From: Natronospira proteinivora
GTDB taxonomy: Bacteria > Pseudomonadota > Gammaproteobacteria > Natronospirales > Natronospiraceae
NCBI RefSeq assembly: GCF_024170465.1
Contig: NZ_JALJYF010000001.1
Location: forward strand, 1,488,001-1,552,000
Length of the DNA stretch: 64,000 nt
Direction: 5' to 3'
Numbering within the stretch: the first letter of the stretch is position 1; the number at the start of each line of letters is the position of its first letter. Shown piece after piece: positions 63,148-63,834 of the stretch. The notes beneath the pieces are model-generated. The model saw only the letters and a program-made list of their open reading frames with translations, was not told where the DNA came from and made no database searches. A program made the position numbers and the translations under genes.

Positions 63148-63219
63148 GCTCCATCAATCAGCCATAAAAAAACCCCGCCTTATCGGCGGGGTTCTTTTTA
63201 TGGCGGGGCTGGGAGGATT
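63148..63219 (-). repeat. Direct repeat of the tRNA-Arg 3' end and terminator (distal copy)
   Basis: 72 bp identical to 63347-63418: the last 20 nt of tRNA-Arg from the T-loop to CCA, the whole terminator, and flanking sequence. It marks the far end of the Arg-associated insert. The terminator copy at 63166-63193 also serves the small gene on the plus strand. Confidence 0.9.
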
Positions 63220-63346
63220 GCTCGGCCCGTCCCTGGGCCTCGCCCTCCGCTTCGCTCCGGGCCTTCCGCCTTCGGCGGAAGCTCAAATGCGTTCCAGACG
63301 CATTTGTCGAACCCCCGGATTGCTTGAAAAGGTCGGGGGTTCGAAG
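63220..63346 (-). mobile_element. tRNA-associated insert, Arg copy (87-bp module plus T-arm hairpin)
   Basis: Bounded by the two 72-bp repeats. In tRNA orientation it first has a hairpin built from an inverted and a direct copy of the Arg T-stem (63307-63346), then an 87-bp module (63220-63306). The module holds stem CAAATGCGT/ACGCATTTG, stem CTTCCGCC/GGCGGAAG and a G+C-rich end. It joins at the T-loop between TTCGA and ATCC. No coding capacity. Confidence 0.65.
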
Positions 63347-63364
63347 GCTCCATCAATCAGCCAT

Positions 63365-63392
63365 AAAAAAACCCCGCCTTATCGGCGGGGTT
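63365..63392 (-). terminator. Terminator of the csrA-tRNA transcription unit
   Basis: AACCCCGCC pairs with GGCGGGGTT, loop of five; seven T follow on the minus strand, 8 nt after the tRNA-Arg CCA. Confidence 0.9.
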
Positions 63393-63399
63393 CTTTTTA

Positions 63400-63476
63400 T
63401 GGCGGGGCTGGGAGGATTCGAACCCCCGACCTTTCGGTTCGTAGCCGAACGCTCTATCCAACTGAGCTACAGCCCC
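63400..63476 (-). tRNA. tRNA-Arg (anticodon ACG)
   Basis: 77 nt including encoded CCA. Acceptor GGGGCTG/CAGCCCC, anticodon loop CTACGAA, T-loop TTCGAAT. Second tRNA after csrA, as argV in E. coli. Confidence 0.97.
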
Positions 63477-63555
63477 TCTTGCTTGTTCGGATCGCCCCGT
63501 GGGCAATGCGCGAAAGCGGCGCATTATGCGGAAATGGGGTCGATCCGTCAAATAC

Positions 63556-63580
63556 CTAATCTGGCGGAGAGGGAGGGATT
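63556..63580 (-). repeat. Direct repeat of the tRNA-Ser 3' end (distal copy)
   Basis: 25 bp identical to 63739-63763, from the T-loop of tRNA-Ser through CCA to a few flanking bases. Confidence 0.85.
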
Positions 63581-63738
63581 GCTCGGCCCGTCCTGGGCCT
63601 CGCCCTCCGCTTCGCTCCGGGCCTTTCGCTGATCGCGAAAGTCCAAATCTGCTCCTGGCAGATTTGTCGAACCCTCTATCGGGTTCGAATAAGGGCCTCG
63701 TCTACCCTGGCCAACCACCGATAATCCGATGGCTCCAT
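63581..63738 (-). mobile_element. tRNA-associated insert, Ser copy (86-bp module plus T-arm hairpin)
   Basis: Same organisation as the Arg insert. The 86-bp module (63581-63666) matches in its G+C-rich part except for one base; its two hairpins have other sequences but keep the pairing (CAAATCTGC/GCAGATTTG and CTTTCGC/GCGAAAG). Next to it is an inverted/direct T-stem pair (63667-63691), then about 47 bp of unique sequence. Confidence 0.65.
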
Positions 63739-63744
63739 CTAATC

Positions 63745-63834
63745 TGGCGGAGAGGGAGGGATTCGAACCCTCGGAGCCCGTTAGGACTCACTCCCTTAGC
63801 AGGGGAGCGCTTTCGACCACTCAGCCACCTCTCC
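63745..63834 (-). tRNA. tRNA-Ser (anticodon GCT)
   Basis: 90 nt including encoded CCA; acceptor GGAGAGG, anticodon loop CTGCTAA, long variable arm typical of serine tRNAs, T-loop TTCGAAT. Directly downstream of csrA, as serV in E. coli. Confidence 0.97.

Follow-up and report, generated by a model that had tools for sequence, protein, structure and literature searches.

We identified a non-autonomous, gene-less mobile element of about 72–90 bp with four hairpins, referred to here as E, which forms a dispersed family in Gammaproteobacteria. E enters DNA 3' of (C/G)GA and before A, with little or no target duplication, and is mobile, as its presence differs among strains of Escherichia coli. Two copies were found beside the tRNA-Arg(ACG) and tRNA-Ser(GCT) genes in the final kb of the window, i.e. 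the whole 64-kb stretch of DNA analysed. The following features were located, with positions counted along the window:

63148–63219, minus strand: displaced tRNA-Arg 3' end (from the T-loop onward) with terminator and trailer, a 72-nt exact direct repeat of 63347–63418
63218–63306, minus strand: E copy 1 (tRNA-Arg insert), from the covariance model (95.2 bits) and the sequence
63307–63317, minus strand: direct copy of the tRNA-Arg T-arm abutting the 5' side of E, in tRNA sense CGGGGGTTCGA
63329–63345, plus strand: T-arm and variable loop of tRNA-Arg, copied in inverted orientation, AAGGTCGGGGGTTCGAA
63347–63418, minus strand: in-place tRNA-Arg 3' end with terminator and trailer, the repeat partner of the displaced copy
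63400–63476, minus strand: intact tRNA-Arg(ACG) gene (ARAGORN and Rfam)
63556–63580, minus strand: displaced tRNA-Ser 3' end with about 6 nt more, a 25-nt exact direct repeat of 63739–63763
63579–63666, minus strand: E copy 2 (tRNA-Ser insert), from the covariance model (88.8 bits)
63667–63676, minus strand: direct copy of the tRNA-Ser T-stem 5' of E, in tRNA sense GAGGGTTCGA
63681–63690, plus strand: T-stem of tRNA-Ser, copied in inverted orientation, GGGTTCGAAT, exact over 10 nt
63739–63763, minus strand: in-place tRNA-Ser 3' end, the exact 25-nt partner of the displaced copy
63745–63834, minus strand: intact tRNA-Ser(GCT) gene (ARAGORN and Rfam)

Each insert lies between a tRNA gene and the displaced copy of its 3' end, and E forms its final part, as a module of 86–87 nt. 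Both direct repeats claimed in the earlier note were exact, and the junctions were also as it had described: in tRNA sense, TTCGA directly precedes E and AATCC directly follows it in both copies, and each module is preceded by an inverted and a direct copy of the host T-arm. The duplication in the tRNA-Arg insert runs past the tRNA into the terminator and trailer. The two modules share 81% identity across 83 nt in an ungapped alignment; this repeat and the two exact ones (72 and 25 nt), all inside 1.2 kb, are far beyond chance. Both window copies belong to the training set of the covariance model and thus reach their scores by construction, and the match of copy 1 takes in two A after the element. 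The 64-kb window gave no other significant match to the model. A small open reading frame (MRGNWKCSIRRDAAEALGF...) occupies 62896–63143 of the window, its end lying 4 nt short of the displaced 3' end of tRNA-Arg.

E is composed of HP1, a short linker, a variable HP2, HP3 and HP4, in this order. HP1 follows the pattern CAAATnnn-(C/T)-NNGGA-(G/A)-nnnATTTG, HP3 is GCCC..GGGC, and HP4 is GAGGCCCAGGGAYGGGCCGAG with a GG(A) loop; the HP1 loop contained GGA in 138 of 145 copies and the HP4 loop GG in 144 of 151. In copy 1 of the window, HP1 is formed by CAAATGCG..CGCATTTG around a CTGGA loop and is followed by HP2, HP3 and HP4 (GGCCCAGGGACGGGCC). The termini of E are CAAAT.. and ..GAGCAA or ..GAGTAA, and no terminal inverted repeat, as expected of a classical MITE, was found at these ends. 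In a comparison with Rfam at gathering score, E matched no family, and only tRNA, tmRNA and small SRP RNA were detected.

HP1 and HP2 of the two window copies differ in sequence with pairing kept, which the earlier note had read as compensatory change. This reading held beyond the training set. Among 61 distinct sequences from other loci, 97.1% of the base-pair cells were paired, both-side changes occurred at 23 of the 25 base pairs, and double changes were observed in 279 cells vs 77±6.5 after shuffling, in an alignment fitted to the model, which leans these counts. As a control, sliding of the pairing partners cut the pairing to 29–49%. Wobble (G-T) pairs made up 6 of 833 pairs in HP1 and HP4, compared with 2.2% in the acceptor stems and 7.4% in the T-stems of tRNAs at the same loci. 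The scarcity of wobble suggests that the hairpins of E are maintained at the level of DNA.

A BLAST search yielded matches in 14 of the 95 genomes searched, in many cases adjoining tRNA genes; six were in the window's genome. A covariance model was built from 18 copies with the flanks excluded. With the covariance model, the search in related genomes proposed earlier revealed a family enriched at tRNAs, the window's genome holding eight copies and a congener (G002) 28. At an E-value of ≤1e-6, E was detected in 122 of 369 sampled gammaproteobacterial genomes and in 102 of 271 genera, the counts per genome being lower bounds. Named carriers of E include Klebsiella, Citrobacter and Chromatiales. 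A phylum-wide search with the model also matched some genomes outside Gammaproteobacteria. With a Klebsiella query, BLAST matched 670 of 5426 complete E. coli genomes, a number that is not an exact count of E because the query spans flank as well as the element. An E. coli query consisting of E and some ERIC flank matched 176 plasmid records, of which 146 were predicted to be conjugative.

The earlier note had proposed integration at tRNA genes, and a strong preference for tRNA 3' ends was indeed observed, but not strict specificity: 20 of the 36 copies in the window's genome and the congener lie ≤320 nt downstream of a tRNA gene, whereas the other 16 lie elsewhere, and E also occurs in ERIC and REP repeats and in open reading frames. 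Against a chance expectation of about 0.5%, the window's genome has four of its eight copies within this distance (P 3e-8) and the congener 16 of its 28, at 11 tRNAs (P 1e-30), with tandem copies counted singly in the P values. The distance from the upstream tRNA is mostly 78–105 nt. The share of T-loops among the fetched loci is biased, because these loci were gathered with a tRNA-site query; the two-genome count is less exposed to this bias, since the model omits the flanks.

Long displaced copies of tRNA 3' ends were found, among the 61 tRNA genes of the two genomes, only at E or at an apparent remnant of E, remnants at tRNAs lacking a model match being judged by eye. At all eight listed tRNAs with a clear displaced copy, the layout is the same: the tRNA, a terminator, the inverted T-arm (about +54 to +66), a short AT-rich loop, the direct T-arm split by E, and the 3' end (direct copy and 3' end at about +164 to +193). 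The direct repeats at E-bearing tRNAs range from 25 to 97 nt. Broken tRNA halves with E were also detected beside an intact tRNA (L013, L032, L187 and L183); the broken half in the first three, which come from other genomes, is the tRNA's 5' part, and the intact gene adjoins it. In many genera, and at several tRNAs as well as tmRNA (L085, L186, L190, L017, L226 and others), the inverted T-arm carries the variant GATGAGAACC instead of GATTCGAACC. A hammerhead-like GATGAG motif in the inverted arm was considered and set aside, as no Rfam match was obtained. Three tRNA-Ser genes of the window's genome (TGA, CGA and GGA; L315, L317 and L319) carry giant palindromes free of E, in which 12–15 nt of the 3' end are repeated in inverted orientation just past the terminator, giving one long hairpin.

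The target sequence was compared over 83 non-redundant sites: 82 have A at position –1, 67 have G at position –2, and A follows the insertion. The orientation of E depends on the T-loop: 28 copies are in sense and one in antisense in TTCGAAT T-loops, as against two in sense and 11 in antisense in other T-loops (P 2e-7 for the contrast), which indicates that E uses the strand reading CGA↓A (arrow, insertion point). Single copies were found in anticodon loops (L022, L185 and L188) and in D-loops (L102 and L182). In a weak test over 61 non-T-loop sites, targeting of hairpin loops in general did not reach significance, but it is clear in single cases, namely T-, D- and anticodon loops and the loops of REP repeats.

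Evidence for mobility was obtained from E. coli. Three spacers, queA-acpH, yeiS-preT and dxs-yajO, occur in three forms each, with no repeat, with ERIC alone, or with ERIC holding an E of 77–78 bp; the repeat was recognized as ERIC by its general consensus. In K-12 AB1157 and BL21, the dxs-yajO spacer carries ERIC without E. ERIC copies that hold E were also found in Citrobacter and other enterobacteria. As at T-loop sites, the insertion point in E. coli lies after GA and before A, and the comparison of filled with empty E. coli sites gave no clear target duplication. The filled sites extend about two bases past the T-loop boundary, so that the exact 3' end of E is not fixed. T-loop sites gain one A at most, instead of the fixed target-site duplication of a MITE.

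Wilson and Sharp reportedly described, in 2006, ERIC copies that hold an insert of about 70 bp within them. E likewise lies inside ERIC and is absent from orthologous ERIC copies, and we take these inserts, as a lead only, to be possibly the same as E. E itself is no part of ERIC, as it occurs independently, at tRNAs, REPs and genes, in about a third of the gammaproteobacterial genomes sampled. In the rtT repeats of E. coli tyrT (Rfam RtT), which are known, to our knowledge, from one operon, a tRNA 3' end recurs within the operon's trailer; the units with E are similar in this respect, and no RtT match was obtained here at gathering score. REP and REPIN sequences, which are associated with RAYT (relatives of IS200/IS605), are short, dispersed, non-autonomous hairpins like E. 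However, REP contains GTAG and is linked with a Y1 gene, and E has neither. In Yersinia, YPAL (RU-2) is a small palindromic element of about 168 bp, neither A+T-rich nor ended by TA, with target duplications of 3–26 bp and with targets spanning or adjoining dyad symmetry; palindromic elements of Rickettsia insert into coding frames and into RNA genes such as those for tmRNA and RNase P RNA (PMC2229807). Compared by description only, E resembles YPAL in its small size and palindromic nature, in not being A+T-rich, in its lack of TA termini and in its dyad-type targets, but differs from it in length and in target duplication; compared in the same way, E shares its palindromic nature and insertion into open reading frames and RNA genes with the Rickettsia elements, which belong to another taxon, and adds the tRNA-trailer layout and the GA↓A target. 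The literature searched contained no account of a tRNA-linked element like E. An integron attC site was also considered and rejected, since it needs crossover at a conserved GTT triplet, whereas the junction of E is GA↓A.

No mobilizing enzyme was found for E; a Y1 transposase and a tyrosine recombinase were each tested and neither gained support. The succession of intact tRNA, insert and displaced 3' end, with its direct repeats, would fit integration of the phage type, in which a tyrosine recombinase in trans inserts a small circle at the T-loop and the repeats represent attL/attR blocks. In line with this, two E copies in inverted orientation enclose an intact XerC-like tyrosine recombinase gene at L064:5928-6966. 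This pair is the only candidate for the full-length element with a recombinase that the earlier note had suggested looking for, and no such element was established: E adjoins none of 13 close relatives of this gene in viral contigs, and the enzyme was rejected as an autonomous partner. Islands that integrate at tRNAs encode or adjoin an integrase; E is too small, and the L064 arrangement is not repeated. Since, in addition, ERIC, REP and coding sites lack a block of tRNA identity, and the displaced copies are host-specific and run through the terminator, phage-type integration appears very unlikely. Single-strand transposition like that of IS200/IS605, with HP1 and HP4 as the left and right hairpins for an HUH Y1 enzyme and the 5' GA as target tag, agrees with the hairpin ends, the conserved 5' target bases, the insertion 3' of a short tag with no clear duplication, and the orientation fixed to the target. 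It is nevertheless unlikely, because E is present in three genomes with no Y1_Tnp match (G698, G003 and G315), E is missing from all 30 loci that surround Y1 genes in E-bearing genomes and were examined, the Y1 gene in the window's genome has a GTAG-type REP of its own on its flanks, and no replication-strand bias was seen at non-tRNA sites (a weak test). A Y1/RAYT transposase was thus rejected as the partner of E in the genomes and Y1 loci examined.

The constant layout at eight tRNAs, with its recurring AT-rich loop and variant inverted arm, points to another possibility, that retro-type or replicative template switching makes the whole unit from the tRNA target, the matched hairpin being a product of insertion. 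The E-free terminator palindromes at the three tRNA-Ser genes are also suggestive of fold-back copying of 3' ends. On the other hand, the copies in ERIC and in genes have no inverted arm, and the scarce wobble speaks against selection at the RNA level; we hold this possibility to be unlikely as well. The GGA and GG of the HP1 and HP4 loops, and the location of copies in tRNA trailers, might suggest that E is kept as a functional RNA, e.g. a decoy for CsrA binding. Depletion of wobble, antisense copies, copies inside coding genes and patchy presence among strains of one species all argue against such a role, which is the least probable of those considered.

We favour mobilization of E in trans, with the T-loop as target and a partial tRNA copy arising together with the insertion, and taken as a whole we consider this explanation probable. 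A trans-acting enzyme would recognize E as folded DNA and insert it at a CGA↓A-type site. T-loops would supply this short target sequence, and tRNA genes would frequently be struck for that reason. As an insertion would do harm in a working tRNA gene, the survivors would carry E in a partial copy beside an intact tRNA, and only cells that keep or regain the intact tRNA would survive. The partial copy most likely arises during repair, through template switching or a tandem duplication, and this would also leave the inverted T-arm; template switching is our tentatively preferred account of both features. Simple duplication models do not explain the recurrence of the inverted T-arm with GATGAGAACC in many genera, and this stands against our explanation. 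It is conceivable, but distinctly unlikely, that E forms the centre of a novel type of mobile unit, one that on entry into a tRNA gene copies a portion of the target into an adjacent inverted hairpin and restores an intact tRNA upstream; if so, a target-matched recognition hairpin would be renewed with every jump.

E is very small, is present in a third of the sampled gammaproteobacterial genomes, is polymorphic in E. coli and uses a common tRNA T-loop sequence. It thus bears on the movement of tiny gene-less elements and on the survival of tRNA genes under repeated invasion, and its polymorphism in E. coli makes the search for the enzyme testable in laboratory strains.

Copies at non-tRNA sites include those in other MITE-like repeats. 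The multi-copy repeats of G263 and G139 were considered as a large autonomous parent and rejected, as they are 200–330 bp repeats with E as a passenger. At L161:4246-4318 and L162:5320-5392, E lies within open reading frames that stay open and gain about 24 codons (DKFAGSE...), a behaviour shared with the palindromic elements of Rickettsia. A pair of E copies that differ in subtype, in inverted orientation and about 60 bp apart, is present at L178:922-1128 and L179:1049-1257, twice in one genome in a repeat of about 390 bp. In the congener G002, many non-tRNA copies (L031, L067 and L070–L078) lie within (AACGAC)n hexamer arrays of varying length.
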